Below are positions 3,631 to 63,090 of a stretch of 64,000 nt of DNA, piece by piece. The position numbers and the translations under genes are program-made. Position 1 is the first letter of the stretch; every line of letters begins with the position of its first letter. The stretch is from Streptosporangium sp. NBC_01495. Its GTDB lineage: Bacteria > Actinomycetota > Actinomycetes > Streptosporangiales > Streptosporangiaceae. The notes under the pieces were generated by a model that did not search any database, was not told the origin of the DNA, and was given only the letters and a program-made list of their open reading frames with translations. The stretch spans positions 1,550,001 through 1,614,000 of the forward strand of contig NZ_CP109430.1 in assembly GCF_036250735.1 (NCBI RefSeq). Reading direction: 5' to 3'.

Positions 3631-3637
3631 CTCGCCG

Positions 3638-3745: not shown

Positions 3746-3785
3746 GTCTTGGCCCTGATCGCGTATGTGAGGCTCAACGCGGTCC

Positions 3786-3874: not shown

Positions 3875-4154
3875 CTGGCACCAAGAGAGCCATTCGAAAA
3901 CTCCATCGGGCACCAGTCGTTGAAGGAACGCATCCATGATCGATCTAACGATGAATCCCATCCCTCGCTAACATGGGGAGCACATCGACCCGCTGTAGGC
4001 CGACGACGAGGCCGCAGGATCATTGCCGCGGGCGCGGGGCCGACCGCCTGGTCCGACAGATCTGGCAAAGCTTAAATTTTGCAGACGCATACCTGTTGTC
4101 GGAGTTTGATTACTTGGTCCGGATTGTGGAATTCAATAATGAGGTTGACCTCCC

Positions 4155-33924: not shown

Positions 33925-33980
33925 CCGCAGCGAACGAGACGACGTAGACGCAGGGGAAGCGAAGGAGAGCGAGAGACCTC

Positions 33981-40834: not shown

Positions 40835-40853
40835 CCGCCACGATGGAAAACTG

Positions 40854-44625: not shown

Positions 44626-45498
44626 CTAAAGATCTTCGCGTGGGGATGCGAGTAGCGCGACCGCGTCAGCAGGGCTGAGCGCTATCGCGCGAAGATGCTC
44701 ACACATATCGTTATACCTCCTGATATCCGTTTCCTTCTCAAGAAATAGGTCGCCGGCCATGCTGTCGATGTAGATCACGTCAGAGTTTTCCGGGGCGAAC
44801 TTCAGGACGATGAAGCTTCCCAGCATTCCGGAGTGGGCTCCAGCGGAGAATGGGATGACCTGGATGGTGATGTGCGGGCGTTGAGCCTGCTGGGCGAGAT
44901 GCGCGAGCTGATCGCGCATGATGGCATTGCTGCCGACTGTCCGATAGAGAGCAGCCTGATCGAGGATGGCCCATAGACGGAGCGGTGTATCTCCCTCCAG
45001 AAGAGCCTGTCGTTGCAGCCGGGCAGCAACACGGTCTTCGACCTGGGCCTCGGTAGCGGTTGGGGGCACAGCCCGGATCACTGCTCGCGCGTAGTCTTCG
45101 GTCTGCAGTAGGCCAGGGATGAACAGCGACTCGTAGTTGATGACTTGCTCAGCCTCGGACTCCAGGCTGATGAGGGCGGTGTACTGATCGCTGAGATTGG
45201 CCTCGAAGCTGTGCAGCCAGCCGCGCTGTCTGGCTTCCTTCTGTAACAACACCAGGTCAGCACGGCGGCTGCCGGTGACGCCGTAGAGGTCGAGCAGGGC
45301 GTTGAGTGTTCGGAGTTGGGGCTTGGTCTTGGCCGTCTCGATCCGGTAGAGCGTGGCGAGATTGAGGTCGGTCTTCTCGGTCACCTCGTTCTGGGCCAGC
45401 CCAGCCTCCTGGCGGAGGCGACGCAGCTCGGCTGCCAGACGACGCAGCCGCACCGTGGGTGGTTGACGCCGGGGCGGCGGAGGCGTGATTTCGCTCAT
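44626..45498 (-). CDS. XRE-type regulator with DUF5753 domain
   Basis: About 290 aa from ATG 45498 (GGAGAAGG 5 nt upstream; the in-frame start at 45525 is less well supported). The N-terminal helix-turn-helix reads LRRLRQEAGLAQNEVTEKTD then LNLATLYRIETAKTKP. The C-terminal DUF5753 domain has YESLFIPGLLQTEDYARAVI, FAPENSDVIYIDSMAGDLFL and the closing RYNDMCEHLRAIALSPADAV. This is the WhiJ/Scr1-like pair with the following DUF397 gene. It probably autoregulates from the intergenic region at 45499-45867. Confidence 0.9.
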   Translation of the reverse strand: MSEITPPPPRRQPPTVRLRRLAAELRRLRQEAGLAQNEVTEKTDLNLATLYRIETAKTKPQLRTLNALLDLYGVTGSRRADLVLLQKEARQRGWLHSFEANLSDQYTALISLESEAEQVINYESLFIPGLLQTEDYARAVIRAVPPTATEAQVEDRVAARLQRQALLEGDTPLRLWAILDQAALYRTVGSNAIMRDQLAHLAQQAQRPHITIQVIPFSAGAHSGMLGSFIVLKFAPENSDVIYIDSMAGDLFLEKETDIRRYNDMCEHLRAIALSPADAVALLASPREDL

Positions 45499-45867
45499 CT
45501 CGTCCTTCTCCCGCATCTTCAGCACCTCTCTGAACTAAGTGGGCAATGCAAAAGCCATGTTGCTTTTACTGAGGGTGATAGTGCATGCTCGCAGAGTTAA
45601 GTTTTCCAGGCGACACCTCCGCTGGAAGGCGAAACACGTGATTTCCCCAGACGGCCGGGCGGACGATCTTCCCTCCCGGGGCGGCCCACCCCGTACCGGG
45701 TGCCCGTCCGGCCTCAGTGGTACGACCGGCGACGCATCTGCGACGCTCCCCGGCCGTGCTTCCCGTAGGACCGGCACCGTGCCCCCGTCCCCCGTGGGGT
45801 GAGCGGCGTCCCCCGTCTGCGAACGGTGCCGGTCCTACGTCCGACGTACTGACCAGGAGCGGGTGAA
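45499..45867. other. Divergent intergenic region
   Basis: About 370 bp between the HTH regulator (leftward) and the HATPase gene (rightward). It carries the 17-bp inverted repeat at 45764-45839 and an A+T-richer block at 45540-45605 likely to contain the leftward promoter. Confidence 0.45.
45764..45839. promoter_or_regulatory. 17-bp perfect inverted repeat upstream of the HATPase gene
   Basis: CGTAGGACCGGCACCGT (45764-45780) is repeated in exact inverse at 45823-45839, separated by 42 nt that hold an inner CCCCGTGGGG hairpin. It ends 28 bp before the ATG at 45868. It could be a long leader hairpin or a looped operator for a dimeric regulator such as the adjacent HTH protein. Confidence 0.5.
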
Positions 45868-46341
45868 ATGACCGGTGTAACCACCACGGAGCACTATCTG
45901 GAACTCTCCGTCTTCCCGACCTCGCCCTACTACGCCCGCGTGCACGTCCGGCGAGTGCTTGAAGGCTGGCGGCGGGACGACCTGGTTGAGATGGCCCAGC
46001 TCGTCGTCTCCGAGCTGGTCTCCAACGCCGTCAAGGCGCACACCTCGTGCCCCGCCGACGTGGAGGCGAACCACCTCGACCCGGACCGCATCTGGATGGA
46101 CCTCTATCTGGTCGGCAAGACGGTGGTGCTCCGCGTCTGGGACGCCGCCCGCACCCCGCCCGTACTGCGCGACCCCGACCCCGACGACGAGAGCGGCCGA
46201 GGTCTCCACCTCGTCGACCTCCTCGCCACCGAGTGGGGCTACTACCGCCCCACCCCCGGCGGCAAGATCGTCTGGTGCGCTCTGGCAACCCCACCGCCAC
46301 CTCCCGAGGAGCGGGCAGGCACCACCCACCCGCACCGATGA
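45868..46341 (+). CDS. HATPase (GHKL) domain protein, anti-sigma-factor-like kinase
   Basis: This 157-aa protein has GHKL ATPase boxes: N-box MAQLVVSELVSNAVKAH, then LRVWDAARTPPVL (G1-like) and ESGRGLHLVDLLATEWG (G2 box). Such stand-alone domains in actinomycetes resemble RsbW/SpoIIAB and bind sigma or anti-anti-sigma factors. The ATG is preceded by AGGAGCGGG. It sits 12 bp before the SAH-hydrolase-like gene and is probably co-transcribed. Confidence 0.88.
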   Translation: MTGVTTTEHYLELSVFPTSPYYARVHVRRVLEGWRRDDLVEMAQLVVSELVSNAVKAHTSCPADVEANHLDPDRIWMDLYLVGKTVVLRVWDAARTPPVLRDPDPDDESGRGLHLVDLLATEWGYYRPTPGGKIVWCALATPPPPPEERAGTTHPHR

Positions 46342-46353
46342 GAGGGAACAGTC

Positions 46354-47475
46354 TTGGAAGTCTTCGAACGTGCCCGGCTGGACGCGTACTTCGCCAAGAT
46401 CGTGACTCGGTTCGTTCCCGAGGAGCGGATCACGTCCTTCCTGATCACTCATCTTCTGCCCGAACGACCCTGTTTCGTCCGCGCGGTCGCGGCGATGAGC
46501 CGCCTGCGGGCGGTTCTGCCCAAGCCCAAGTCGATCGACCCCGCCGCCCGGCGCGAGGTCGAGCAGGCCGTCCCGGTCGACGCGCTCTCCCGTGAGCTGT
46601 TCGCCGACCCCGGCACGGCCCTGGACTACTTCGAGTCCCGGGCCGCCACCGAGCCGATCGCGCTGCTGGACGTCGGCGGTTACTTCGCCCCGGCCCTGGC
46701 CGAGGTGCACGGGCGCTTCTCCGGTCGGCTTCTCGGGGTGATCGAGGACACCGAGAACGGCCACCGCCGCTACCAGGATCTCGACACGCTGCCCTGCCCG
46801 GTGGTCTCGGTCGCCCGGTCGCCGTTGAAGGACCCGGAGGATTTCCTCGTCGGCCAGTCCGTGGTCTTCTCCACCGAGGCCGTCATGCGCGGACGGGGCG
46901 ACATCCTGCACGGCCGCCCGGCCCTGGTGATCGGGTTCGGCAAGCTCGGCAGCTCGATCGCCCGGCTGCTGCACGCCAAGGGTGTCCAGGTCACCGTCTT
47001 CGACATCGACCCTGTTCGCCGTACCCAGGCGCTGTCCCAGGGGTTCGCCGTCGCCCGTGACCGGCACAGCGCGCTGACCGGAGCCGGACTCGTGCTCTGT
47101 GCGACCGGTGCCATCTCCCTGAGCGGCGAGGACTTCCCCCACCTGCGCAACGGCGCCTACGTCGCCACCGTCACCAGCAGCGAGGACGAGTTGGAACTCG
47201 GCGGACTGCTGGACGTCTACACCCGCACGATGGTCGGTGACTACATCACCCGATATCAGACGACCGGCCACTACTTCTACCTGGCCAACGGCGGAAACGC
47301 CGTCAACTTTTTGCACGGCGCCAGCGTCGGGCCGTTCATCTTCCTGGTGCAGGCCGAGATACTCGCCGGAATCGGGATGCTCACCCGCGGAGACCTCGCA
47401 CCCGGTATGCATGAGGTCTCCGCGGCCGACCGCGCCGCTGTCGCGGCGATCTGGCTCTCCTACTTCAACAGGTGA
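46354..47475 (+). CDS. S-adenosylhomocysteine hydrolase-like NAD-binding protein
   Basis: The 373-aa protein starts at TTG 46354, with GAGAGGGA 6 nt upstream. A Rossmann glycine motif (ALVIGFGKLGSSIARLLHAK) is followed by VTVFDIDPVRRTQALSQGF and a late NGGNAVNFLHGAS, as in the NAD domain of adenosylhomocysteinases. The family's usual N-terminal substrate domain is replaced by an unrelated ~150 residues with ALLDVGGYFAPAL and VIEDTENGHRRYQDL. It is therefore a paralogue and may not hydrolyse SAH. Its TGA overlaps the Nudix gene. Confidence 0.75.
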   Translation: MEVFERARLDAYFAKIVTRFVPEERITSFLITHLLPERPCFVRAVAAMSRLRAVLPKPKSIDPAARREVEQAVPVDALSRELFADPGTALDYFESRAATEPIALLDVGGYFAPALAEVHGRFSGRLLGVIEDTENGHRRYQDLDTLPCPVVSVARSPLKDPEDFLVGQSVVFSTEAVMRGRGDILHGRPALVIGFGKLGSSIARLLHAKGVQVTVFDIDPVRRTQALSQGFAVARDRHSALTGAGLVLCATGAISLSGEDFPHLRNGAYVATVTSSEDELELGGLLDVYTRTMVGDYITRYQTTGHYFYLANGGNAVNFLHGASVGPFIFLVQAEILAGIGMLTRGDLAPGMHEVSAADRAAVAAIWLSYFNR

Positions 47476-48023
47476 TCGACTTGGCCATCACGGCAGACCA
47501 CATCCGCACCGTCATCGGCGACTATCTTGACGCGTACCCCGAGGAGAAGCGGAGCCTCGCCCTCGCCCTGGAACTGCTGGACGACGGCGCGGACCTCACG
47601 ACTCGCAGGGAATTCCGCGGCCACGCGACCGCCGGTGCGATCCTCGCCGACCCCGACGGGCGGATCCTGCACATCCGTCACCTCGCCCTGGACAGGTGGC
47701 TGCTGCCCGGCGGTCACCTGGAGGCATCCGACGCCACCCTCCTGGACGCTGCCCTGCGCGAGCTCGCCGAGGAGACCGGCATCCCCGCCGCCGCCGTCAT
47801 CCCGGCCGGTAACCGTCCCATCCACATCGACATTCACCCCATTCCCGCCAACGCGGCCAAGGGCGAACCGGAGCATCGGCACATCGACTTCCGGTTCCTC
47901 CTCCGCACCGCCAACGCGGTCGGTCGACTCCAGACCGAAGAGGTAACCGCCGCAGCCTGGCGCGAGGCCGACAGCATCAGCGACCCCGTCCTGAGATTGC
48001 GCGTCACCCAGACACTTCGCTGA
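47472..48023 (+). CDS. Nudix hydrolase
   Basis: The 183-aa protein starts at GTG 47472 (GTGA overlap). The Nudix box is LPGGHLEASDATLLDAALRE followed by LAEETGI. It has the longer spacing seen in GGHxE-type Nudix proteins, with Asp in place of the first Glu and intact REL-EE-G. Substrate is unknown; coupling to the SAH-hydrolase-like gene suggests nucleotide or nucleoside metabolism. Confidence 0.88.
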   Translation: MIDLAITADHIRTVIGDYLDAYPEEKRSLALALELLDDGADLTTRREFRGHATAGAILADPDGRILHIRHLALDRWLLPGGHLEASDATLLDAALRELAEETGIPAAAVIPAGNRPIHIDIHPIPANAAKGEPEHRHIDFRFLLRTANAVGRLQTEEVTAAAWREADSISDPVLRLRVTQTLR

Positions 48024-48190
48024 GATCTTCTGGCTGGATTTCGAGTCCGCCAGATAAAAATCACGTGCTGGAAGGCGAAGTCTTAACAGAGGCGCGAGCG
48101 ACATGGACGACATCCGGGCTCAGAACATTTCCGAAAGCATTGGAGACCTGACCGGGGAAAGCGCAAGCGCCGGGCCACTGATTCAATCGT

Positions 48191-51100
48191 TTAGCCACGG
48201 ATCCTTCTGGAGCGGGGGTTCACCTGCTGGACGACCAGGAGCGGACTGCGTTCGGCGGTGAACCAGTCCGTGACGATGACCCGTGAGGGATCACCCGCAT
48301 GGGTGAGTGCCGCTTCGAGCGCGGCTTCGAGGCGAGGACTTGTCAGGTCCTCCTCACATGCCTCCAAAGGATGGCGGACCACGATGGCGTACGGTGCGCG
48401 CCGCGCCTTCATCCCCATGACTCCCATGTCCGGCAGCAGGAAGGTGCCGTCGTACAGCGCTTGCAGTCCTCCCAGCGACACCCGCTCACGTCTCACCGAC
48501 GAGGCCGTCAGGGCGAGAGGGGCGCCGGAGAGCACCGCGAACAGATCAGCACCCAGCCGCCAGTCCAGCAAGGGGTGGAACACCATGTTGTCGTAGTCCC
48601 GCAGGCAGCCGTAGCACGACGTCTCACAGGCGTCGGCGTGCGCGGGATCGGTGAGATCTGCGAGGAAGCGGGCGACGTGCCCGGTGAACTCCTCGGCGAC
48701 CTCGCCGAGATGAGTGCTGAACCCCGCGCCGTTCTCCAGCGCGTCCGCGAGAAAGGCGTACAGCGCCGTTCCATCACGATGCGGTCCCGGGTGCACGCCC
48801 GCGATGAGTTCTCGCGGGTCGACATCGAGGAACTCAGCGGCGGCGGTGCGTAGCAGGAACGCCAGTGAGTACCAGGCGGCGCGCCGCCCCTGGTGGAGAT
48901 CGGCGCGGAACCGGGGTCTGGGCAGGTCAAGGCCGAGCCGCAGCCCCTGCTCGGGATCCGTGGTCGTCCGCGGCCCGACGAACAGGAAGTCCGTGGGGAG
49001 TACGGCACCGAGCGCGGCCCGTACCGGCTCCCCGAAGCCCTTCGCCGTCGGGTCGGCGTCCTGCGGTACGACGTAACCACCCCAACTGCCGGAGGCCTTC
49101 CGGAACGCGAACCCCTCGCCGTCGTTGTCGTTGACGATGTAGCGCTTCCCCGGCCCCGAGTAGAGTTTCGCGGCGCCCCACGATGTGGGGCGCAAGGCAT
49201 CCAGATCGGTGGTGGCACGGGCGGTCACCATCCGGGCCGACCAGGAGAAGTTTCCGTCGAAGTCCCGAGGTGGGCTGGCTCGGAATCCCGCAGGCTCCCG
49301 CAGGTCCACGACGCGGAACCGCTCGGAGCCGCACAGTGGGCACGGCCCTTCCTTTCCCGGTCCCAGATGGTTGCATGCCGTGCACAGCCCGATCATCCGC
49401 TGGTTCGTGAGCGGTTCGGGAATCGGCCTGGGCTTGCCGTAGGAGTTGGGGACGAAGTCGGTGACGCCCACCACCGTGAAGACCTCGCCGTCCTTCACGA
49501 TCTCGCTTCCGGGTGCGAAGGACGACACCGCGAGTGCGAGATCCCGGTCGACGGTGGCGTCCGGTGGCCATGGGTACGAGCGGTCGGGTTGCTGCAGGTA
49601 GAGCTGTCGCACCCGGGTGGGGAACCCGAACATGGGCAGTGTCCCAAGATGTGCGAGGCGTTCGCCGAGGTCCTCGCTTTCCCCGGGAAGAGCGGCGAGC
49701 TCTCCGATACGGCCGAGGAGCCGTTCCGCCCATTCCTCATTGAATCGTTCAGGGGTGAATGCCGTGAAGGCGGTGAAGGCGGCGGCGCTCGAAACGATCA
49801 AAGCCGGGTTCTCGCGGTACCACCGGCGAATGACAGGTTCGACCTCGGGCCACTCCGCCGCGCTGCCGAACTGGCCGTGCACACCGCCGGTGCGGTCGGC
49901 GGCCAGGCCGGTGGCCGCGAACGCCATCCGGAGGGTGTCGCTCGCGACGGTCCGTTCCAGAATCTCCAAGCGGTCCAATGCGAGGTAAGGCGGGGGAACG
50001 GGATCGTTGGTCACCGCTCCCGGGTTGCGGAAGTAGTGCTCGTCGTGGCTCCGTCCCCGGCAGACGGTGAGGGCCACCGCGACCGGCGATGAGCGACGAC
50101 CCGCGCGGCCGACCCGCTGCTGATAGTTGAACCTGGTGGGTGGCATGTTCGCCATGACCACGGCGGACAGCGGTCCGATGTCGATTCCCGCCTCCATCGT
50201 GGTCGTCACCGAGAGCAGGTCCAGTTCGTGAACAAGAGGCCGCTCCCCCTCGTCGAGGAAGACCCGCTGGAACCGAGCCTGCCGTCGCTGTGCCTCCACC
50301 CGGCCGGTCTGCCCGGTCAGCTCCGCGCAGTTCAGCCGGAACGCTCCGGACGCGGTCGCGGCCTTCCACGCGTAGTAGTCGTCTTCGGCTGCTCTCAGTG
50401 GCTCCGGTTCCGCTGAGAGTCGCCCCCGGCAGCCCGTGCACACTCCGGCGTTCAAGGCGAGATGCTGTCGGCCGCACATCCCGCAGCGCCAGGCGCGATC
50501 CCCCGAGGGGCGGATCGCGACCTTCGCGGGATCGAGGAGGAAGTCGGTGACGATCCCCCGCCAGTAGGTCTCCGCCTGGTCGCGTACATCGTGGAAATCG
50601 AGGCCGTGGACTTCGGCGATCTTCTTCCAGTAACTGTTCAGCCGCTTGGGAACACCCGAGACGTAGGGGTCACGGAGATTATGGAAGCGCCGCAGCTCGG
50701 CGAGGACCCGCAGGCTGCCCTGGCCGAGCCCGGAGAGTTTCGTGTCGGTTCGCCGATCGGCGGCGTCGATCCAGCCCATCCCCAGCGATTCGAAGTCACG
50801 GTTCGAGCCGGAGAACAACGCCTCCACGGTGTTCTCCAGCAGATCGCCTTCGGCGCTCTGTACGGTACCGAGCAGCGCGTCGGAGAGTGCGGGAATGAGC
50901 CTCGGGGGCGTGACCGTCCAGTCGTAGAGAGTGTGCCAGTCGGCTCCGCCGGGCTGCTGCACGGAGGGCCGGGGACCGGCCGGGTTGACGCCGAGCGCCA
51001 TCAGCCGCCGGTGAATGACGGTCTTCGCGAGCAGGTCGAGGCGAAGTGGGGCGGTGAGCTTGGCCGCGGCGATCGCGGCGGCCTCCTCGTCCTCGTCCAG

Positions 51101-53299
51101 CCAAGCCAGGCGTAGGTCCTTCAGCGCGTCCGGATCCTTCGCGGCGAGTCGGTCGAGGTCGGCCCGGTTGCCCGAGGCTCTGGCACGGACGATGTCGTCA
51201 CCGCTGACGGTCTGCTCTTTGGTGCCCTGCAGCGCGAAGATTCGCACCAGGTCCTGGTAGTGGCGCAGGGCGAGGCCGGCGGAGAGTTTCGCGGCGTTCT
51301 GCCGACTGTCGGAGAAGACGATGAGTTTGCGGTCCGCGGCATTATCGAACTGGGTCGCGAGCTCCGTTGAGAGAACCTGGTTCACTTTCTCGAACCCGGT
51401 ACGCATGGCGCTGATGGGAGACAACTGCCGATCTGGATGAGTGAGGGGAAGGACACCGACGGTGCGGTTCCTGGTGCGCTCCCAGTCGGCGGCGCACGAG
51501 GGGCAGCGGGTCGGGAACGGGGAGAGCTTGTCGAGATCGACCCGAGGCGCACCGGTTCCCGGGGTCTTGCCGGATTCGATGTGGAAGCTCCAGCCGGTCG
51601 CGCCCTCCTCCTGGTTGGTGAGCGTGCCGGCCCGAGGGTTGAGGACGGAGCGGCGGAAGGACATGGTCACCGCGCCTTCTCCTCGCTGGAAGCTGTCGTT
51701 GTTGCCCGCCTGCTGCCGGTGAGTTCGAGGCCAGTACACGACATAGTTGTGGGCCGTGCGATCCGGCCTGGCCAGGTCCGGGATTCTCGACAGGTCCGGG
51801 GTGTCCGGAAGGAGGTGCGAGTCGAAGGCGGGACGGTCGAACGCCTCCCACGGGGCGTATCCACCGAGGAAAACGTCCCCGCAGGATCGGCAGAAGAGCA
51901 GCTCCAGCACGCGGGCATTGCACACACAGAACGTCCGTGGCCGGGCGTACATGCGGCCGATGCCCCGCCCCTCGTACGCGCCGCTGGGGATCTGAGGGCA
52001 TGCCGGATCCGAGCACGCCCACATGCCCGAGACGTTGCGGAAGAACAGGTGTGCGCGGATCTTCTCGGTGGGGGCGACCGCTGCGTCCCGCAGAGGGACC
52101 GTGCGGCCACCGCCCACCGCCAGCTTTCCCGGGATGAACTCGAATGACTTCTGGTTGACGGCGAAGAACTGCTCGGGGAAGGAGCGGTCCCGCTCAGAAT
52201 CCAGCGACGCCGATGTGGTGATGATCCGAAGCCGTTCCGGGCGGTCCATGATGCCCAGCCGTTGCCGGAGATTACGGAGGAGGTAGGCGACCTCCGTTCC
52301 GGCCGTGCCCCGGTGGATGTGCAACTCATCGACCACCAGGGTGAATCGGGCCCCCGGGGTCTCGGTGAGCCAACGCCGGGTCTCCGTGAAGAATCCTTCG
52401 TCGCGATCCCTCAGCAGCATGATGTTCAGCATCGAATGGTTGGTGATGAGCAGATCCGGCGGGGCGTGGTACATGTCCCAGCGCGACAGCATCTCGGCGC
52501 CGCCGGGCCGGGGCGCGAAATACCGGGTGTCACCGTCGGCCTTCGCCGCCTGACGGCTCCGATCCTGCGCCTCCCGAAGAAAATCCTGTAGTTGCTTGAC
52601 CGCGCCGGTCTGGTCCGGTCGGCCCAGCACCGGGGTTGCCCCGGTGTATCGGCCGAAGTAGAAGCGGTGTCCGCCCCGGTTCGCGTCGAGCCACGCCCTC
52701 GCCGCTTCGCCGTCCAGCGCCCGGCGCAATCGCACGAGCTGATCGTCGACCAGGGCGTTCGTCGGGTACAGGATCATGGCCCGTACGGCCCGCGGACGTC
52801 CCTGTTCTCCCTCTCGGTGTGGCACATACGGCGCGCCGGAATGATCCCACCAGTGCTTCACCGTCCCCGGCGTGCCGCCCCAGGACCGGGACTCCGCGAG
52901 AAGGTCCGCGATGATCGGCAACAGGAACGCCTCGGTCTTCCCCGATCCGGTTCCCGCCGTTACGACCACGTTCCGGCCGGGGGCCAGAGAGTGGATCAGT
53001 GCTTCCTCTTGATGGGTGTACAGTTCCTGACCTGGGCCGAGCAGTCCCAACTGGGCGAAGTCGGCGAGTTCCGCAGGGGCGCCGGCTAGAACTGCGGAAT
53101 CGGCGAGAGAGCGGCCTGTGGTCGTGTATTCCGGCCGCACCTCTACATAGGGCTCGGTGTACATCCCGCCCGGGGTGTCCAACAACGCCCGTCGCTCCGC
53201 CTCCAGTCGCGGATCCCGAAGCCGGAACGCCGTGTCGTAGTACCGCAGGTACGCCTCACGCAGCGCATCGAAGGTCCGCGTCACGTCGAGCCCGCTCAT
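48191..53299 (-). CDS. Large DEAH-box helicase with DUF1998-type C-terminus (DruE/DrmB-like)
   Basis: The protein is 1702 aa. SF2 motifs in order: YTHQEEALIHSL (Q/motif 0), VVTAGTGSGKTEAFLLPI (Walker A, residue about 112), LYPTNALVDDQLVRLR (Ia), VVDELHIHRGTAGTE (DEAH-like, DELH), ITTSASLDSERD (III), SVTTTMEAGIDIG (V) and QRVGRAGRRSSPVA (VI). Several zinc-ribbon-like cysteine clusters occur (LLFCRSCGDVFLGGY; CGMCGRQH..CTGC; CTACNHL..CPLCG). The C-terminus has the DUF1998 signature CETSCYGCLRDYDN. Helicases of this design are Druantia DruE and DISARM-type components, but the partner genes here do not look like DruA-D, DruH or DISARM. It overlaps the upstream gene by 4 bp. Confidence 0.88.
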   Translation of the reverse strand: MSGLDVTRTFDALREAYLRYYDTAFRLRDPRLEAERRALLDTPGGMYTEPYVEVRPEYTTTGRSLADSAVLAGAPAELADFAQLGLLGPGQELYTHQEEALIHSLAPGRNVVVTAGTGSGKTEAFLLPIIADLLAESRSWGGTPGTVKHWWDHSGAPYVPHREGEQGRPRAVRAMILYPTNALVDDQLVRLRRALDGEAARAWLDANRGGHRFYFGRYTGATPVLGRPDQTGAVKQLQDFLREAQDRSRQAAKADGDTRYFAPRPGGAEMLSRWDMYHAPPDLLITNHSMLNIMLLRDRDEGFFTETRRWLTETPGARFTLVVDELHIHRGTAGTEVAYLLRNLRQRLGIMDRPERLRIITTSASLDSERDRSFPEQFFAVNQKSFEFIPGKLAVGGGRTVPLRDAAVAPTEKIRAHLFFRNVSGMWACSDPACPQIPSGAYEGRGIGRMYARPRTFCVCNARVLELLFCRSCGDVFLGGYAPWEAFDRPAFDSHLLPDTPDLSRIPDLARPDRTAHNYVVYWPRTHRQQAGNNDSFQRGEGAVTMSFRRSVLNPRAGTLTNQEEGATGWSFHIESGKTPGTGAPRVDLDKLSPFPTRCPSCAADWERTRNRTVGVLPLTHPDRQLSPISAMRTGFEKVNQVLSTELATQFDNAADRKLIVFSDSRQNAAKLSAGLALRHYQDLVRIFALQGTKEQTVSGDDIVRARASGNRADLDRLAAKDPDALKDLRLAWLDEDEEAAAIAAAKLTAPLRLDLLAKTVIHRRLMALGVNPAGPRPSVQQPGGADWHTLYDWTVTPPRLIPALSDALLGTVQSAEGDLLENTVEALFSGSNRDFESLGMGWIDAADRRTDTKLSGLGQGSLRVLAELRRFHNLRDPYVSGVPKRLNSYWKKIAEVHGLDFHDVRDQAETYWRGIVTDFLLDPAKVAIRPSGDRAWRCGMCGRQHLALNAGVCTGCRGRLSAEPEPLRAAEDDYYAWKAATASGAFRLNCAELTGQTGRVEAQRRQARFQRVFLDEGERPLVHELDLLSVTTTMEAGIDIGPLSAVVMANMPPTRFNYQQRVGRAGRRSSPVAVALTVCRGRSHDEHYFRNPGAVTNDPVPPPYLALDRLEILERTVASDTLRMAFAATGLAADRTGGVHGQFGSAAEWPEVEPVIRRWYRENPALIVSSAAAFTAFTAFTPERFNEEWAERLLGRIGELAALPGESEDLGERLAHLGTLPMFGFPTRVRQLYLQQPDRSYPWPPDATVDRDLALAVSSFAPGSEIVKDGEVFTVVGVTDFVPNSYGKPRPIPEPLTNQRMIGLCTACNHLGPGKEGPCPLCGSERFRVVDLREPAGFRASPPRDFDGNFSWSARMVTARATTDLDALRPTSWGAAKLYSGPGKRYIVNDNDGEGFAFRKASGSWGGYVVPQDADPTAKGFGEPVRAALGAVLPTDFLFVGPRTTTDPEQGLRLGLDLPRPRFRADLHQGRRAAWYSLAFLLRTAAAEFLDVDPRELIAGVHPGPHRDGTALYAFLADALENGAGFSTHLGEVAEEFTGHVARFLADLTDPAHADACETSCYGCLRDYDNMVFHPLLDWRLGADLFAVLSGAPLALTASSVRRERVSLGGLQALYDGTFLLPDMGVMGMKARRAPYAIVVRHPLEACEEDLTSPRLEAALEAALTHAGDPSRVIVTDWFTAERSPLLVVQQVNPRSRRIRG

Positions 53300-54195
53300 C
53301 GAATCTCCAGTTTCCGGTACAGCGATGTGGCGATCTTCTCCGCGATCTGTCGCGGCACCCCGTCATAGGCCAGGCTCCCCGACACTCGCAGCGGTGGCAG
53401 ACCCGTGCACAGGATCGCTGTCTCTCTGTGGCGGCGGGGAAGTGGAGCCCGATGATCGACGGTGAGTCGTCCCGCGCTTTGCCGGGCGCCTTCGGCTTGA
53501 TCCGCTCGCCAACGGAGGGGGTGAATGGTGGAGGGCAGGGACAGATGAATTCCCTCGTCCCTGCCGACGGGATACCAGTGGCGATCGCGACGGAGAACGT
53601 ACCGGGGGATCTGTCCATGCAGAAGATATCTGTACAGCCCTGGAGGCGGAACCGGGACTGGCCGCGACTTCCTGAACTGGCCGGAGAACTTATCGAAAAC
53701 GGTCAACTCGGTGTTACGGGCAGGACCGGGCCCAGGCTGCCCGAGTTTCAGAGGAGGTAACTCGTCCGCGATCCGCTCCGCGGCGCATCGTGTGAGCTGG
53801 ACGCCGAGCGCGCTCTGTGCCTGCTCCTCATGCCCTTGGAACCACACCGTCGACGGAGGCTGAATCGAGTCCTCCTGTCGGTGCCGGCACACGACCAGCC
53901 CCGGGAGGTCCGTCCAGTTCTCCAGAGTGGGACGGGCGCCGGTGAGTAGGGTCACCTGGGTCTCACCGGGGAGGGACGTCAGGGTCAACGGCAGGGCCTG
54001 CCAGGTGCGAGTGGTCCGGTCGAGGCGGAGAAAACCCATGGCCTCCAGCAACTCGATCCATTGGGAGGCATCGCCGGGGGTGGTCCAGGAAGCCCAGGCG
54101 ATGTCGCGCCGGAGCCGGTCCAGCGGCCCTGAGCCGACCTCGGCAAGCCACGAGACGCACAGGTCCGGGTCGAATTCAATCAGACGGTCAGCCAT
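53296..54195 (-). CDS. Unknown middle gene of the DUF1998-helicase operon
   Basis: About 299 aa from ATG 54195 (an in-frame ATG at 54207 is possible); it overlaps the genes on both sides. The N-terminus could be a winged-helix-like segment (WIELLEAMGFLRLDRTTRTW then QALPLTLTSLPGE). After that come LVVCRHRQEDSIQPPSTVWF, a Pro-rich stretch, and RYVLRRDRHWYPVGRDEGIH. No catalytic motif or membrane segment seen; no family recognised. Overlaps of 8 bp upstream and 4 bp downstream show tight coupling with both neighbours, so it is probably a complex partner of the helicase. Confidence 0.65.
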   Translation of the reverse strand: MADRLIEFDPDLCVSWLAEVGSGPLDRLRRDIAWASWTTPGDASQWIELLEAMGFLRLDRTTRTWQALPLTLTSLPGETQVTLLTGARPTLENWTDLPGLVVCRHRQEDSIQPPSTVWFQGHEEQAQSALGVQLTRCAAERIADELPPLKLGQPGPGPARNTELTVFDKFSGQFRKSRPVPVPPPGLYRYLLHGQIPRYVLRRDRHWYPVGRDEGIHLSLPSTIHPLRWRADQAEGARQSAGRLTVDHRAPLPRRHRETAILCTGLPPLRVSGSLAYDGVPRQIAEKIATSLYRKLEIR

Positions 54196-54459
54196 GGCCG
54201 TGGCCATTCACCGATACTGTCTGCAGGTATCGCTTATGAACTTCCCATACTTTTTGTAGATATCGCGCCCAGAGTTTTTCGACCGGTCGATGTTCGATCA
54301 CGTACATAACTCTCCAGAATTTCCACATCTCCGGGGTAACCTGAGTGATCCGTGGTTCTTCCGGACGGAGCATCTGGGCCTTGATAGTGCCGTCCGGGCA
54401 GTCGATCACGAGCCAGACGGCGGAGTCGGGGATTTCTATCGCAGCAGGGCCACCGGTAC

Positions 54460-55916
54460 TACATCCGTAGATTTTGAGGGAGTGGGTCGCCTCGTCGGCG
54501 GTAGTGGCTGATCATGGCTTGTGCCTGGTGGTGCCGACGGAAGTTTGACCAGGCCAGGACGTGGTCGATAAGGGCGACGGCGGGCAGGATGAGGCGGGCG
54601 AAGACGCGGCGGATTTCGGCGAGGGAGGCCCGGATCAGCCGTACCGGGATCAGTGGGCTCTCTCCCGGAGCGGGTGAGCTTTTCCCGCGGGATCGGCGGG
54701 CTCGTCGTCGAGGTGGGCGTGGGTGACGGCGAGGAAGGCCAGCGCGAGCATGACGGTGGTGACGTGCCGGTGCCAGCCGTCCCACCGCCGGACCTGGTAC
54801 TCGGTGAGGCCGAGCAGGTCCTTGCCGGTCTCGTTGTTCTCTTCGACCTTCCAGCGCATTCCGGCCACTGAGATCAACTCGGGGAGCGGGGTGGCGGTGC
54901 GGGCGTGAGCGAGGAAGAACTCCACCTCGCCTGGATCGCTGATGCTGCGCCTGATCAGCAGAGTGTGGGCGTAGCCGTCGGCGGGTTGTTGTTCGGCCAG
55001 GGCGATGGCGACGGCGGCCCAGTCATAAAGGCGCATCCCCTTGACGCCCGCCCCGCACGAACGGCGTTCCCACACGCTGTTGTTGCCCATGGCCAGGAGC
55101 CGGTCCAGCACATGCCCGACCGGTTCGGCGCCGCCGCGGGCGGCCAGGAGCGGCAGGTCGACCGGCACCGCCATGACGTAGGCGACGCGCTCGGCGTGAC
55201 AGAACACCCGAAGACCCGGGTCACGGCCGTAGCCGGAGTCGGCGGTGAAGTAGCGGAACGGGGTCGCGGCAGCGATCTCCTCGCCCAGCATGTCGATGAC
55301 CTGCTGGGGTTTGGTCGCGAAGACGACCTGCTCGGGAACTCCGGCGACCCGGCGGCGCCCGAGATCGCCGGCCCAGGCCTCGGGCAGATACAGGCGGCGG
55401 TTGATGAAGGCGTGCCCGGCAGTCGAGGCGTAGGTCAGCATTGGCATGACCTGGCAGTTTTCGATCTGACCGGTCAATCCGCAGTACTGGCGGGCCACTC
55501 CGGCCGACCGGTCACCCTTCTTGATCGCGGCGGTGTCGTCGGCGATGAGCACCCCGTCCGGGCGGCCCAGATGCTCCACCACGTAGCCCCGAACGGCATC
55601 GCGCAGCAGGTCGGCGTCCCATTGGGCGCGCGACAGCAGATGCTCGATCCGGTTGGAGGTCGGGTGTCCGAGATGATCTGAGAGCTGCCAGGAGTTCTTA
55701 CGCGGTACATCGGCCAGCAGGCCGCGGACCAGATCACTGAAGACCGCCTTCGGCTCAGGTCGTTTGAACAGCGGGTCGGCGATCCTCGCGGTCAACGCCG
55801 ACAGCTCGGCATCCCAGGACACGACGTGATCGTAGGTGAGACATAAGGTCACGCGCAGACCATCACCCATCAACCCGCAATTACGCAGGCGAACCACCTA
55901 ACGATCTACCGATGCA
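54460..55916 (-). mobile_element. IS701-family insertion sequence
   Basis: 1457 bp. Terminal repeats are TACATCCGTAGAT (left, 54460) and TGCATCGGTAGAT (right, read inward on the minus strand), 11 of 13 identical. It is flanked by the 4-bp direct repeat GTAC at 54456-54459 and 55917-55920. One intact transposase gene on the minus strand. Four-bp duplications are normal for IS701. Confidence 0.9.
54650..55870 (-). CDS. IS701-family transposase
   Basis: About 406 aa from ATG 55870; the frame is open from 55897. It has the IS701 DDE blocks: VLIADDTAAIKKGDRSAGVA then RQYCGLTGQIENCQ (first Asp), FRYFTADSGYGRDPGLRVFC (second Asp), and MRWKVEENNETGKDLLGLTE (Glu region). The closing segment is WDGWHRHVTTVMLALAFLAV. 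Length and order fit a full, probably active enzyme. Confidence 0.92.
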   Translation of the reverse strand: MGDGLRVTLCLTYDHVVSWDAELSALTARIADPLFKRPEPKAVFSDLVRGLLADVPRKNSWQLSDHLGHPTSNRIEHLLSRAQWDADLLRDAVRGYVVEHLGRPDGVLIADDTAAIKKGDRSAGVARQYCGLTGQIENCQVMPMLTYASTAGHAFINRRLYLPEAWAGDLGRRRVAGVPEQVVFATKPQQVIDMLGEEIAAATPFRYFTADSGYGRDPGLRVFCHAERVAYVMAVPVDLPLLAARGGAEPVGHVLDRLLAMGNNSVWERRSCGAGVKGMRLYDWAAVAIALAEQQPADGYAHTLLIRRSISDPGEVEFFLAHARTATPLPELISVAGMRWKVEENNETGKDLLGLTEYQVRRWDGWHRHVTTVMLALAFLAVTHAHLDDEPADPAGKAHPLRERAH

Positions 55917-57688
55917 GTACCGGACAGTCCGGTGCGCCGTACGTGCCACCAGGCAGGTGGTTCCGCCGTGGCCAGGTTGGTGTGGTGGCCTTCGGCGTCG
56001 ATCGCCGTGGCTCTTTTCAGCGGGGAGTGCTCGGAATCCGCTCTGGGGGGAGCCAGGCTCTTGAGAACGCTCCTCTGTTGAGGAGCGTGCAGGTGGAAGG
56101 TCAGCTGTCCACTTTCGCTGTTGATCACATGGCGGCCGGCGGTGAGCCCTCGACCTCTGAGCTCCGTCCGTTCGCCATCGCAAAGGATGCTCTTGCCGTC
56201 AAGCCGTACGTCGCCGATCCCCACCGGCACCACCAGGTCTGGCTCGCCTCCTATGAGGTAATGCCGCCGCTCGCCAGCGCACTGGAGTCGTAGTCCACCC
56301 ATGAGCCGAGGCCGTCGTACCACCGTTCCGGCACCTTCGGTGAACTCGACGTCGGCCGCCACGAACCAGCCGTCTACAGAACTCTCCTCAGGGTCCTCCC
56401 AGGTGAGACCTGCCTCTGTCAGAAGGTCTCTGGCCTTCTTCTCGCCTGGCGCGTCGAAGAGGAGAAGTGAGGGCAGGTGGAGAGCCGCCTTTTCGACCTC
56501 TGTCCATCCTCCAAGAGGATCCTCTTGGAGGATGATCGGTTCCTTCTGGGATGAAAGGCTGACTTCCAGATGCTCGCCACGCGCGACAAGCCCGGAGGTG
56601 AGGCTCTGGCCGATTTCCGGTAGGTCGCCTGAGAGCGTGTAAAGAGAGCCTTCGCCCTCTGCGGTTACCGAGAGACGGCCACCGGGGTGTGTCAGCACGT
56701 CCCCGCCGACGCCAACAAGGCGTTCTGCCCGCCACCGCAGTGTCCAGCCGTCCCGTGGGTCGTCGGTTGCGGTGATCCGCAACGGTAGTCGGCGCAATCC
56801 GGTTGGAACCGGAGGGGGACGATCATCGGATGTGGCGAGGGCGGCCAGTAGCGGGCCGAGGAAATCGTCGAGGTCACCTTTGTCCAGGGCCGCTCGAAGA
56901 CGGGCGGAGAGACGTGACCTGTTCTTCCACATCCGTAGCCCCTGTAGGAGGGCGGTCTCGTCACGTATCGTGCACCCTTCGAAGAAGGGAGTCAGTCGCT
57001 GGCGATCGGCGGCGCAGATGAGGGCCTGCGAGCGGGCATATCCAATGAGCTTCTGCCCCCTGGAAGTGCGCAACGTGCTCACTCCCCGTGCTCCTTCACG
57101 TTCCTCCAGCCACTTGTGGAGATACGTCCAGAGGTCCCTTACTGTCCCGTAATCACGCTGGAGGTATTTCCCATGGTTGGTCTGGTGTGACCAACTCGGC
57201 GGAGGGAGTAAATCAGCCAGCCGAGCGTAGTAGTGGTGAGCACCCCTTCCGCCTTCACCACGCATTCGGGTCGCGGCCAGAACGCACACCGCGAGTAGCG
57301 GCAGGCACGGCGGTGGGTCTTCTCGTGTGGACCGTTTCCAGGTGAAGTACTCCTGGCGGATCGGCTCGTATGCGTGGCTATGCCAGTCGAGGGCTTCCTG
57401 CGCGACGGCAGCGCACAAGTCATCGATGGAATCGGTGGCCTTGGCGTCGCCGTGTAGCTGTGCGGTCTTCTCGTCGTCGACGAAGAACAGCAGTGGATGG
57501 CCGTTCTGATCGGGGCCGAAGAACTCTCGGGTAAGGCGCCTCTGCCACCAGTTATAGGAGCGCATGAGAGCTATCCGCAGTAAGTAGGCGGCACGTGATC
57601 ATCCGCTTAAGACGAATATCGGACTGATACACGTTTGGATTCAGTGAGGTCACGTCAAAACGCTCTCTGTCAGATCCGCTCATTGACT

Positions 57689-58695
57689 GAGGTGATCTCA
57701 GCGACTTTTAAATGAGTCTGCCGTGCTCGAAATGGGTGAGGACGAGTGCGGCGCGGGCGATGTCGCCGATCTTGCTGGGGCTGGCGGTGATGCGCTGCAG
57801 GGTGCGCCAGCGTTGGGTGAGCAGAGCGAAGCCGCGTTCGCCCAGGCAGCGCAGCGCACGCAACAGCATGTTGCGGGTGCGGGTGTCGACATCGAGGATG
57901 TTGCCGTCGGCCGGTTGCCGGGCGGGGGTGCGTACGCCGAGCCCGGCGCCGTCGTAGCCGGCATCAGCCAGGACCGGCAGGCCGCGGGCGCAGGCGGGAT
58001 ACAGAGCCGGCAGGACGTGGGTGCGGGCGGCGACCAGGTCGTGGATCGATCCGGGCTCGACGTCGGAGACCCACAACGGCATGCCGTCGGGGGCGAACAG
58101 CGCTTGAAGGTTGCCGCCGTGGTGGTGGGTCTTTCCCGAATACCACAGGTCGATGGGTTCGCCTTTGACGCTGGTGGTCTTCTCGCGGCAGCGGTCGGTG
58201 GCGATGACGGTGCCATCCAAGATCAGGTGGGGCAGTTCCTGGGTTTGGGCGTGGCGCAGGCACTGGTGCAGGTCGGGTGCCTGGTCGGCCAGGATCGCGA
58301 TGGCTTCGTCGAGGTAGCGGTAGGCGGTGGCGCGGGAGATGTGGTGGTCGCGGGCCAGGGCGGTGGGGTCGGTGCGGTCGCGAAACCAGCGCAGGACCAG
58401 GACGGCTTGGCCGAAGCAGGTCAGGGCTCGGGTGTCGGCGCGGGTGCCGCGCCGGCGGCGTTCGGCGGCCAGGAGGGTGGCGACATGGCGAACCAGGTCC
58501 CGGGAGACGTCGAGCGTGGCACGATAGGTGATCACGTGGAGCTTTCCGGTCGAGGATCTTGTGGTGAGACCTCTTCTACCGGGGGCTCCACGCTCATTTC
58601 AGGGACATCGCGACCTATCCCGGTTCGTACGCGTCAACGACGCTTGGCGGTATTAACACCGCAGATGCTTGACCTGTTCTCGCTGAGATCACCTC
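57689..58695 (-). mobile_element. IS5-family (ISL2-like) insertion sequence
   Basis: 1007 bp with perfect 16-bp terminal repeats GAGGTGATCTCAGCGA at each end. It is flanked by the 3-bp direct repeat ACT (57686-57688 and 58696-58698). A 3-bp ANT duplication is what the ISL2 group of IS5 produces. It carries one intact transposase and lies just upstream of the DUF1998-helicase operon. Confidence 0.88.
57708..58535 (-). CDS. IS5-family transposase
   Basis: The 275-aa DDE transposase has an N-terminal helix-turn-helix (ALARDHHISRATAYRYLDEA), first Asp in HLILDGTVIATDRC, second Asp in LPVLADAGYDGAGLG, and Glu in LRCLGERGFALLTQRW. It is intact and fills the element. It is a different lineage from the frameshifted transposase at 6868-7640. 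Confidence 0.92.
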   Translation of the reverse strand: MITYRATLDVSRDLVRHVATLLAAERRRRGTRADTRALTCFGQAVLVLRWFRDRTDPTALARDHHISRATAYRYLDEAIAILADQAPDLHQCLRHAQTQELPHLILDGTVIATDRCREKTTSVKGEPIDLWYSGKTHHHGGNLQALFAPDGMPLWVSDVEPGSIHDLVAARTHVLPALYPACARGLPVLADAGYDGAGLGVRTPARQPADGNILDVDTRTRNMLLRALRCLGERGFALLTQRWRTLQRITASPSKIGDIARAALVLTHFEHGRLI

Positions 58696-59073
58696 ACTGA
58701 ACTGAGTTGCACCGAAGAGGTCGACTAAGTCAATTGATAGCGGTAGTCGCGTGACTTCCTTGGTAAGTGACCTCATGGTGAACAGACGTGGCGAGTGGCG
58801 TTCTGGTTTACCTATGGGGCTTCTGAAGGGAAAGATCTATATGAAATATCATCACATAGAACTTTTCGAGTGATTTGAGAGGTAAGCGGCATACATGGCT
58901 ATTTCTGGCCTGATGGGTGGCCGTGTCCGGCTATAGGTCCCTCGGTGATTGAACGCGCTGCGCTTCTGGGAGGCTTGCCGCACCACATCGCCGCTCAGAA
59001 TCCCGACCTGGAAGACGAGGACGGACGCGGCCTCCATTCACCCCTGCGGGGATCGGGGCGCGGCACCGCCGAG
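58696..59073. other. Intergenic region between the IS5 element and the nuclease-helicase genes
   Basis: About 380 bp, A+T-richer at 58830-58900 (GATCTATATGAAATATCATC). This was probably the original upstream region of the operon whose first gene starts at 57565, now separated from it by the IS. No gene supported. Confidence 0.4.
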
Positions 59074-61005
59074 TCAGGTGCCGGAGCCGTTGACGAGGCC
59101 GGAGAGGAACTCCTGGGTCTCAGGGTCCGTCGAGTACAGGACCATCCCCGTCAGCCCCCTGGTGAGCAGCACCTTGTAGGTGTTGCGGATCAGGCGGTCG
59201 AACTGCTCGTGGGTGACCGACGACTTCGTCAGGTCCCTGTCCTTGCATCCCTCGCGCTCCGTGATAAGCCTGCCGCCACGGGCCAGCAGGTCAGGGCCGA
59301 TGATCACGCCGGCCCAGTCGAACTCCAGGCCCTGGGCCGTGTAGACGCAGCCGATCTGGCCGAATCCGCCGGGCGCGCTGGCCCAGATCTGGCTCGGGGG
59401 AGCGTCGCCAACCTTGGAAGGGCTGTTCGCGTTCCAGGGGCGTTCCCAGTCGCCGATCTTCACGTCAGGCTCGAGGGTCTTGTCGGGGTTCGGCTTGCTC
59501 CACGGCCAGCAGAACCCGGCGGTCATCCGGGCCGTCCAGCCCTCGGAGAGCTTGGCGGCCAGAGTGGACTCCATGTCCGCCGGGGACTCGGCGACGATCA
59601 CCTCGAAGTTCTCGTCACCGGTCCAGGGTTGTGGCCCCGCGTCGCCGTCCCACTCGCCGTCCTCGTCGCCGAGGGCGAGAAGCCGGCGCACCCACAGGTC
59701 GTAGGCGACGCTCCCGCCGCACCGCCACTGGCCCTCGAGCGAGATGTGGTGATGGCGTACGTTCAGCTGCTGCGCGTACGACTTGATCGCGGCCAGGGTG
59801 CCGACCTCGCCCGGCTTCACCACTTGGTGCTCGTCGAGGAAGAAGACGGGCACCCGGGCCGCGTTGATCAGATCCTGGATCTGCGGTCGGTCGCTGCGCT
59901 TTTTCGGGTTGAACCGGTCGAAGGACTTCAGCCGGGCACGGTGCGCCTCGTCGGCGATGAGGATGTCGGCCTCATTGGGCCCGGCGGTCGCGAAGTCGTT
60001 GAAGTACTTGAAAAGGTTCCTGAGATCCTTGTCGCTTCCGGTCACGAAGCGACGCATCGTCTCGGTGAAGGCGCGGGATCCGGTGGCGTACCAGGTGCGG
60101 TGCTTTGCGCTGGCCATGTAGTGCAACAACTCGATGGCCACGGCGGTCTTCCCGCTGCCGGGGCCGCCGGTGATGGTGACGACCCGCTTGGTGTTCGCGG
60201 CGAAGGCCCCCTCGACCGCGTGCCGTACGGTCTCGAACGCCTTCTGCTGCTGGTCGACGAGGATGAACTTGTCGCGTCCCTTGAGGACGTTCGCGGCCTT
60301 CTCCAGGAGTGGCTGGTTGGGCTGGACCCGCCCGTTGACGAGGCGTTCGGCCGCGGGGTGCCCCTCCGCGTTCTCGAACCGGTCCCTGAGATAGCCGACG
60401 AACGCGCTCCGCTCCGTCTTGGTGAACAGCCGGACGTTGCTGTCCAGGGCCAGGTCGAACAGGCCGGGGACGCTCTTCCGCGTCGCGTTGTGCAGGTAGG
60501 CCACGCCCTCTATCGCCTCGGGCTCTCCGTCCAGGGCGCTGCAGTTCTCGGCGAGCTGCTGGCAGTAGTTGGAGACCTGGGTGGCGGGATGGGTGTCGTA
60601 GTCGTTCCAGCTTCCCGGGACCACCACGAGCTTCTCGTCCTCTTCGTAGAGCTCCGCCTCGCTCCACTGCTTGAGCTCGATGACGACGAACAGGTCCTTG
60701 CTGGTGTGACGGTTGACCCCCGCGAGGACGACGTCCGCCGCGCTCTTTCTGTTGTGCGGCATAGGGAACTCGACCATCACCTCGATCCTGTCGAGTCCGG
60801 CGTCGTTCAGGTCGCGGGCGAGGGCCGAGAGGCTGTTGGTCCACGCCCGCAGCTGGCTCTTGCCGGCTGGCCTTCCCGTCTCCCGCTTCGTCGCTTCGGC
60901 GAGTGCCGCGGTGAACGCCTTCTCCATCTCGGAGGCCGGAGTGGAAAGAGCCGTGAAGAACGTCGCCGCGGAACCTCTGTAGGCGGGTCCCAGCTGCCTG
61001 GCCAT
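59074..61005 (-). CDS. Nuclease-helicase (PD-(D/E)xK-like + DUF2075), Nhi-like, copy 1
   Basis: The 643-aa protein starts at ATG 61005. The N-terminal part carries a PD-(D/E)xK-like nuclease core, ADVVLAGVNRHTS then LFVVIELKQWSEAEL (residues about 90-115). The C-terminal DUF2075/SF1 ATPase has Walker A ITGGPGSGKTAVAIELL (about 282), Walker B ADILIADEAHRARLKS (about 347), VFFLDEHQVVKPGE (motif III-like), RCGGS, GCVYTAQGLEFDWAGVIIGP (motif V-like) and NTYKVLLTRGLTGM (motif VI-like). This matches the design of Nhi, a single-protein nuclease-helicase anti-phage enzyme described in staphylococci. It is paralogous over its whole length to the adjacent gene. Confidence 0.82.
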   Translation of the reverse strand: MARQLGPAYRGSAATFFTALSTPASEMEKAFTAALAEATKRETGRPAGKSQLRAWTNSLSALARDLNDAGLDRIEVMVEFPMPHNRKSAADVVLAGVNRHTSKDLFVVIELKQWSEAELYEEDEKLVVVPGSWNDYDTHPATQVSNYCQQLAENCSALDGEPEAIEGVAYLHNATRKSVPGLFDLALDSNVRLFTKTERSAFVGYLRDRFENAEGHPAAERLVNGRVQPNQPLLEKAANVLKGRDKFILVDQQQKAFETVRHAVEGAFAANTKRVVTITGGPGSGKTAVAIELLHYMASAKHRTWYATGSRAFTETMRRFVTGSDKDLRNLFKYFNDFATAGPNEADILIADEAHRARLKSFDRFNPKKRSDRPQIQDLINAARVPVFFLDEHQVVKPGEVGTLAAIKSYAQQLNVRHHHISLEGQWRCGGSVAYDLWVRRLLALGDEDGEWDGDAGPQPWTGDENFEVIVAESPADMESTLAAKLSEGWTARMTAGFCWPWSKPNPDKTLEPDVKIGDWERPWNANSPSKVGDAPPSQIWASAPGGFGQIGCVYTAQGLEFDWAGVIIGPDLLARGGRLITEREGCKDRDLTKSSVTHEQFDRLIRNTYKVLLTRGLTGMVLYSTDPETQEFLSGLVNGSGT

Positions 61006-61075
61006 GCGTATACCCCCAGGGCACGAAGATTCGTGCGGTGTGGGGGCGTGTCCGTCGCCGGAAGCCCGTCGGGCC
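61006..61075 (-). promoter_or_regulatory. Structured leader of nuclease-helicase copy 1 (hairpin containing the RBS)
   Basis: On the minus strand CCCCCA pairs with TGGGGG around an inner stem GCACGA / TCGTGC. GGGGG ends 7 nt before the ATG and is the only Shine-Dalgarno candidate. An upstream GGCCCGACGGGCTTCCG block completes the element. The same arrangement precedes copy 2. Confidence 0.65.
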
Positions 61076-61126
61076 GCGCTGTCGGTGGTGCGAAAGTCGT
61101 CGCTTGTTTGGTGTCGCTCCGGGCCC

Positions 61127-63004: not shown

Positions 63005-63090
63005 GGACCTACCCCCAGGCAGCACGAGAGACTCGTGCGGTATGGGGGCGTATCCGTGCTCAGACGATGAGCGGAAGCCCGTCGGGCCGC
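63005..63090 (-). promoter_or_regulatory. Structured leader of nuclease-helicase copy 2 (hairpin containing the RBS)
   Basis: On the minus strand CCCCCA and TGGGGG again form the outer stem; the inner stem is GCACGAG / CTCGTGC with a 3-nt loop. GGGGG is 7 nt before the GTG. The GCGGCCCGACGGGCTTCCG block is conserved upstream. The region between the blocks differs from copy 1, so conservation is selective. Confidence 0.65.

Follow-up and report, generated by a model that had tools for sequence, protein, structure and literature searches.

The window, a stretch of 64,000 nucleotides from Streptosporangium sp. NBC_01495, carries three coupled minus-strand genes at 57565–48191, each overlapping its neighbour by a few nucleotides, as the sequence-only reading of this DNA had described. 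We name them druF, druL and druE, in the order of transcription (Table 1). The druL and druE frames overlap by 4 nt, while druL and the C-terminal piece of druF overlap by 20 nt. The size of about 299 residues given earlier for the second protein is obtained when druL is read from its second in-frame ATG.

An insertion sequence (IS) splits the first gene in two. The last 6–7 residues of the 555-residue N-terminal piece are encoded by the insertion; the C-terminal piece, which alone had no PADLOC or Pfam match, matches the DruF C-termini of five relatives by tblastn (loci L022, L028, L029, L032 and L033). Intact DruF in the nearest kin has 624–628 residues, and the 638 residues previously given for the window protein were a reconstruction. 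The operon does lie in a defence island, with BREX genes on one side and two Schlafen-group-3 helicase-domain proteins on the other. Extension of the operon by two further minus-strand open reading frames (45835–47412 and 47460–48113) was considered and rejected, because neither frame matched any family in PADLOC, Pfam or NCBIfam and both run antisense across the SAHH-like and NUDIX genes of the plus strand.

Table 1 Features of the druF–druL–druE operon and its surroundings, in positions of the window.
Feature	Position	Strand	Description	Evidence
druE	48191–53299	−	1702-aa SF2 (YprA-family) helicase with MZB/DUF1998 zinc end; intact	PADLOC DruE4 (PDLC00051), Pfam
druL	53296–54207	−	303 aa from first ATG; intact	PADLOC DruL4 (PDLC00057)
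druF, C-terminal piece	54188–54409	−	Beyond the IS	tblastn, DruF C-terminus of five relatives
IS in druF	54460–55916	−	1457 bp; transposase 54650–55897 (−)	Pfam DDE_5
druF, N-terminal piece	55898–57565	−	555 aa as read, of which ~549 are druF	PADLOC DruF4 (PDLC00052)
Second IS	57683–58701	−	Transposase 57708–58535	Pfam DDE_Tnp_4
BREX genes	25601–44326		PglW, BrxC, PglZ, BrxD, BrxHI	PADLOC
Two Schlafen-group-3 helicase-domain proteins	59074–61005 and 61127–63025	−		

Assignment of the operon to Druantia type IV

All three proteins found their best PADLOC matches in type IV models of Druantia. The helicase matched DruE4 with 2082 bits, the top score among the 23 families listed; the earlier placing of a DruE-like helicase in one defence-type operon was right. 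The N-terminal piece of DruF matched DruF4 over residues 2–500 (321 bits, E = 3e-96) and DruL matched DruL4 over residues 15–302 (176 bits, E = 3e-52). Druantia type IV was first described by Payne et al. 2021 (PMC8565338), who count 168 instances from 11 phyla; in passages of that paper it consists of DruE, DruF and DruL, the last being a hypothetical protein, and lacks DruM and DruG, which type II has. The window operon has this gene set and differs by its IS-broken druF: a DruE-type helicase, DruF and DruL are present, and neither DruM nor DruG was found at E ≤ 0.01 among the open reading frames scanned with PADLOC at 44626–48113 and 58945–63070. No cytosine methyltransferase was found in the window (tblastn, 1e-8). 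Because of the three PADLOC matches and the lack of DruM and DruG beside the operon, we assign it to type IV, and put at roughly 85% the probability that this is a predicted Druantia type IV anti-phage operon, druF–druL–druE, with a druF recently broken by an IS and a copy that is probably impaired.

The sequence-only reading had proposed an undescribed system whose two partner proteins carry no known Druantia domains. Neither part of this proposal stands, as the gene set had been named Druantia type IV in 2021 (passages of PMC8565338) and both partners match Druantia models, DruF4 and DruL4. They went unrecognized because Pfam and NCBIfam contain no family for DruF or DruL. That gap, together with the lack of solved relatives for either protein, would be expected of a genuinely new defence system with only a DruE-like helicase in common with Druantia, but the type IV models cover almost the whole of both partners, and every row of the wider sets is matched as well, the 26 of DruF by DruF models and the 25 of DruL by DruL4. 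The PADLOC matches of the window partners and of all these rows already refute such a system, which we consider highly improbable; settling that the operon is of a known kind avoids a false claim of discovery. Our search of the open-licence literature found no experiment on any Druantia type IV system.

The three genes co-occur elsewhere, as had been anticipated. With the window’s own genome included in each count, the DruL4 model matches 14 of 297 genomes from the order and 5 of 396 from the phylum, and the window DruL protein finds 2 of 16 from the genus. Apart from the window’s own, 13 genomes of the order were matched; druF, druL and druE are adjacent in 12 of these and the 13th (L034) holds a remnant. 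The gene order druF–druL–druE was found in all four further phylum genomes. It was also found in all 29 named DruF loci, apparently all from Actinomycetota, that were recovered by a contig scan with two short peptide patterns and a DruF alignment and that are no census. As nine loci are shared between the order genomes and the scan, these sets (13, 29 and 4) amount to 37 distinct loci besides the window, 36 of which have the order druF–druL–druE. One locus (L038) has a broken frame, its DruE match being limited to roughly the first 200 residues, and another (L049) is cut by the end of its contig. A pattern-limited scan of viral contigs for DruF relatives gave 132 pattern matches, none of them confirmed; tblastn found no DruL in plasmids, and DruE relatives in 88 plasmid records, eight of which were inspected, were all below 60% identity.

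The DUF1998-type C-terminus ascribed to the helicase was confirmed as a Pfam MZB (MrfA Zn-binding) domain at residues 1480–1566, and DEAD, Helicase_C and MZB were the only Pfam domains found in the protein. Within it, a C-x3-C-x2-C motif lies at 1558–1565, and each of its three cysteines is present in all 34 aligned DruE sequences; eight further cysteine pairs are conserved in 29–34 of the 34 rows, as expected of zinc modules. Of the SF2 motifs, the columns of Walker A, D-E-L-H and motif VI agree in 32–34 of the 34 rows, variable positions aside. The C-terminal ~110 residues of DruE4 show no nuclease motif in the alignment and none by Pfam. By sequence, the nearest solved chain is 9wae, a 1970-residue helicase (E = 3e-162); 9tu7, which we take to be the Druantia III helicase, is matched with E = 6e-37 and 130 bits.

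Comparison with other systems built around YprA-family helicases pointed the same way. Druantia type II (DruM–DruF–DruG–DruE) has DruE and DruF in common with the window operon, which differs in having no DruM or DruG alongside. Type III (DruH–DruE) also has a YprA-family DruE, but DruE3 models score at most 330 bits on the window helicase against 2082 for DruE4, no DruH match was found in the window operon, and the PLD nuclease domains of the type III helicase were not found by Pfam in the window DruE. According to passages of Bell et al. 2025 (PMC12458937), DISARM (DrmA/DrmB), Dpd (DpdJ), ARMADA and other systems use the same helicase family with a zinc-rich OB–CON–DUF1998 region, and this likeness, with BREX genes 3.9 kb from the operon and pglW adjoining it also in Nonomuraea harbinensis (L035; 83% identical and divergent from druF), could suggest a DISARM, Dpd or BREX-satellite operon. 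However, DrmA and DpdJ models reach at most 47 bits, compared with 2082 for DruE4, NCBIfam scores are far below their cut-offs (DpdJ, 45.5 bits against 800; DISARM_DrmAL, 13.9 against 999), and pglW was matched in only two of the 29 named loci (L035 and L047, within ~10-kb flanks). The partner genes of DISARM, Dpd and ARMADA are absent from the window operon, and we see hardly any chance that it is a DISARM, Dpd or BREX-satellite operon rather than Druantia type IV. Druantia I and II are described in parts of the same source (PMC12458937) as a fourth CoCoNuT group with inactive CnuB; we did not use this link, as the sole GTPase-like DruF match, seen in a single member, had 12.6 bits where the cut-off is 27.

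Insertion sequences and the state of this copy

The IS within druF is bordered by GTAC on both sides (54456–54459 and 55917–55920). Six full-length copies of 1457 bp, five besides the one in druF, are present in the genome and are 100% identical; each has GTAC at either end, and the sequences beyond it diverge. Because of the identical copies, the GTAC flanks and the differing sequence outside them, the IS borders can be taken as exact and the insertion as recent: druF, the first gene of the operon, is broken by a recent IS insertion. A second IS, with 22-nt terminal inverted repeats that are 91% complementary, ends upstream of druF, ~118 bp from its start, and may separate the operon from its promoter.

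Since druF is interrupted, Druantia type IV function is probably impaired in this copy. About 88% of DruF can still be read, and the broken copy might retain some function. With one IS splitting druF, another just upstream, and broken copies in other genomes too (the remnant at L034 and the frame-broken L038), the operon could be a dead relic retained by chance. Against this, druL and druE are open over their full length, the helicase motifs of druE are conserved, and the identity of the IS copies dates the hit as recent; we judge the odds of a relic to be about even. The window operon illustrates cleanly how a currently multiplying IS can strike a defence operon.

DruF and DruL as one putative split subunit

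Profile comparisons pointed to a relation between the two proteins. Among 25 DruL sequences, the window’s included, nine match model PDLC00023 and seven PDLC00016, both of which are long DruF models filed as DruF2, the type II form, and include the DruL part; the window DruL itself has no match to either at E 0.01. In the members inspected, the match falls at positions ~723–1030, the C-terminal third of the long DruF form (~1010–1030 residues). Of seven unfused DruL proteins compared in this way, five match and two (L046 and L056) do not.

Fusions of the two parts were found in several lineages. A single 1013-residue protein of Alisedimentitalea (L067) matches the DruF profile at its N-terminus and the DruL profile at its C-terminus (hhalign, 99.4% and 96.4%, respectively), and a 1061-residue open frame of Shinella (L071) has the same arrangement. 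In Actinomycetota, druF and druL form one open frame at 4 of the 37 loci: two from Nocardiopsis (L059 and L063), L026 and L085. Fusion state changes at least three times on a DruE tree of 40 rows, a provisional count since long rows (L026 and L085 among them) are possibly misplaced. Deinococcus (L064) and Calothrix (L066) have a shorter first protein, and in the second protein ~140–155 residues precede the start of the DruL match, so the cut between the two parts seems to fall elsewhere along the sequence; the extra stretch before the DruL match has no match to the DruF profile.

The canonical type II system of Agrobacterium (L070) differs. Its 837-residue DruF (PDLC00019) shares only the N-terminal domain: the DruF N-terminal domain aligns with it (88%), and only weakly with an 888-residue protein of L068 (28%); the L070 DruG gave no alignment with DruL, and the 476-residue partner protein of L068 had no DruL match. 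On these profile matches, DruL and the C-terminal third of long DruF forms are homologous, a relation that does not extend to all DruF of type II. This homology and the fusions make DruF and DruL look like one split subunit, and suggest that the two ‘unknown’ proteins of the window are two halves of one part. We found no statement in the open-licence literature that DruL is the end of DruF; the protein DruL was treated there only in Payne 2021, in passages of that paper (PMC8565338).

Conservation and predicted folds gave some indication of what this putative unit does. Positions at which a polar or charged residue is at least 90% conserved number 10 in DruF and 3 in DruL, and D186 of DruF is the sole fully invariant acidic residue in the two proteins. 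Because conserved polar residues are so few, a structural or recognition role appears likely for DruF and DruL. The winged-helix part of DruL has a median net charge of 0, which is no argument for strong DNA binding. The predicted DruL structure (pLDDT 93) had no Foldseek match at E ≤ 0.001 among PDB or viral proteins; above that threshold, short winged-helix-sized PDB matches had moderate probabilities (for example, 7kym, 0.60; 3o6b, 0.63), and a siphovirus protein was matched with a probability of 0.96 over 68 columns. DruF was modelled from a Microbispora relative (L037; mean pLDDT 80, pTM 0.45), in a prediction whose domain arrangement is not trusted, and had no PDB match at E ≤ 0.001. Sequence profiles of both proteins matched PDB chains at chance level only, and Pfam gave scattered weak matches over all DruF and DruL members.

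Methyltransferase neighbours and a proposed mechanism

The survey of neighbouring genes covered ~10 kb on each side of the 29 named loci where the contig allowed. A cytosine-5 methyltransferase was found at 13 of these loci, a Vsr endonuclease at 9, and either one at 14. Three of the four further phylum genomes have the methyltransferase and two have Vsr; totals for the 37 loci, which add these genomes and G070 (L026) and count G007, G208 and G129 as without, are 17 for the methyltransferase and 12 for Vsr. In many relatives, the absence of DruM that marks type IV is thus not strict, a DruM-like methyltransferase lying nearby. None was found in the survey for the window or for its closest relatives (L022, L035, L036 and L037).

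Methyltransferases are few per genome: the 14 whole genomes with druL hold 20 such genes in 13 genomes, pieces in one frame being counted once. Six of the 20 lie within 10 kb of druL, at 2.1–8.8 kb. As controls in the same genomes, 5 of 12 Vsr genes lie within ~10.1 kb, none of 15 HsdR genes lies within 10 kb (one is at 21 kb), and none of four PglZ genes over cut-off does so (two are at 13–16 kb). The association of the methyltransferase with druL is stronger than that of HsdR, but patchy.

These neighbours could mean that type IV is modification-dependent, with a DruM-like cytosine-5 methyltransferase, often accompanied by Vsr, marking self and the DruF/DruL unit reading the mark. The frequencies just given, the distance from druL compared with HsdR and PglZ, and DruM2 as the best PADLOC model for three of the five neighbouring methyltransferases scanned would fit this idea. 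However, the generic MTase_II was best for the other two, no methyltransferase was found at 20 of the 37 loci, the window and nearest kin included, its presence switches at least eight times on the DruE tree, and defence genes cluster in islands anyway, as the two PglZ genes at 13–16 kb from druL illustrate. We regard modification dependence as rather unlikely. Similarly doubtful, in our estimate, is the wider proposal that DruL is a detached C-terminal part of DruF and that several Druantia forms are one design, an F–L subunit with DruE, which a travelling cytosine-5 methyltransferase (and Vsr) would often accompany, setting a self-mark for F–L to read.

For the type IV operon itself, we infer a YprA-family helicase that acts on phage DNA, with a non-enzymatic DruF/DruL unit to target or gate it. 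What comparison shows directly is the family identity, the gene order, the IS in druF, the intact helicase motifs and the kinship between DruL and the final part of long DruF forms. DruE would load on 3′-single-stranded or replicating phage DNA and translocate, by analogy with Druantia III, whose DruE is described in passages of PMC13192584 as a dimeric helicase that prefers 3′-tailed DNA; the transfer is uncertain because DruE4 is distant from the type III helicase chain (130 bits). DruF and DruL would together form one non-enzymatic unit, with a helical N-terminal domain and a beta-rich middle, followed by a winged helix and a C-terminal domain in the predicted models, which might choose the DNA or gate DruE. 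As no nuclease motif was seen in the C-terminus of DruE4, phage DNA would be blocked or destroyed by the helicase itself or by nucleases from elsewhere; an inactivated Vsr domain at the DruE C-terminus is reported for types I and II (Bell et al. 2025, passages of PMC12458937 that do not mention type IV).

What is added to the description of 2021 is the relation between DruF and DruL and the methyltransferase neighbour. Experiments and structure predictions should treat DruF and DruL as one unit, for which the natural fusions can be used, and with a methyltransferase recurring nearby, it becomes possible to test directly how Druantia tells self from non-self.

Island genes beside the Druantia type IV operon

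The tandem Schlafen-group-3 helicase domain proteins of the window drew weak matches in the PADLOC library to PDC-S41, Nhi and AbiO. Planotetraspora mira has a Druantia IV operon of its own, and next to it lies one relative (64% to the second protein of the window's pair). Between BREX and druE, the S-adenosylhomocysteinase-type and NUDIX hydrolase genes overlap by 4 nt.

In Nonomuraea harbinensis, BREX pglW is divergent from druF, an arrangement that differs from that of the window; a relative of the open reading frame that the window's BREX carries at 30157-33924 likewise follows pglW there.

Features of the window and of loci with Druantia IV relatives
Feature	Location	Position	Strand
Erythromycin-esterase family protein	window	2332-3630	+
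Reverse transcriptase, group II intron type (RVT_1 + GIIM domains)	window	5197-6576	+
Elongation factor G-like protein, full-length, 704 aa, within island	window	17275-19389	+
BREX: PglW, ORF 30157-33924, BrxC, PglZ, BrxD, BrxHI	window	25601-44326	+
S-adenosylhomocysteinase-type NAD-binding protein	window	46354-47475	+
NUDIX hydrolase	window	47472-48023	+
Schlafen-group-3 helicase domain protein, 643 aa, first of pair	window	59074-61005	-
Schlafen-group-3 helicase domain protein, 632 aa, second of pair	window	61127-63025	-
Methyltransferase directly upstream of druF	L088, Actinomycetota genome	4632-6680	
Methyltransferase directly upstream of druF	L065, Nostoc plasmid	1800-3950	
655-aa protein immediately 3' of druE	L067, Alisedimentitalea	13391-15358	

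Neighbours and decay of druFLE in other loci

The methyltransferases of the actinomycetote locus L088 and the Nostoc plasmid locus L065 are related (49% identity), and both loci have the gene row methyltransferase-F-L-E. In Alisedimentitalea the 655-aa protein shows weak GajB and NERD+UvrD matches; after it come genes for a cytosine methyltransferase and an MvaI/BcnI endonuclease.

Locus L034, in another genome, consists as a whole of a Druantia IV operon remnant, namely a DruL fragment and the final ~110 residues of DruE, and is a sign of decay of the operon there.
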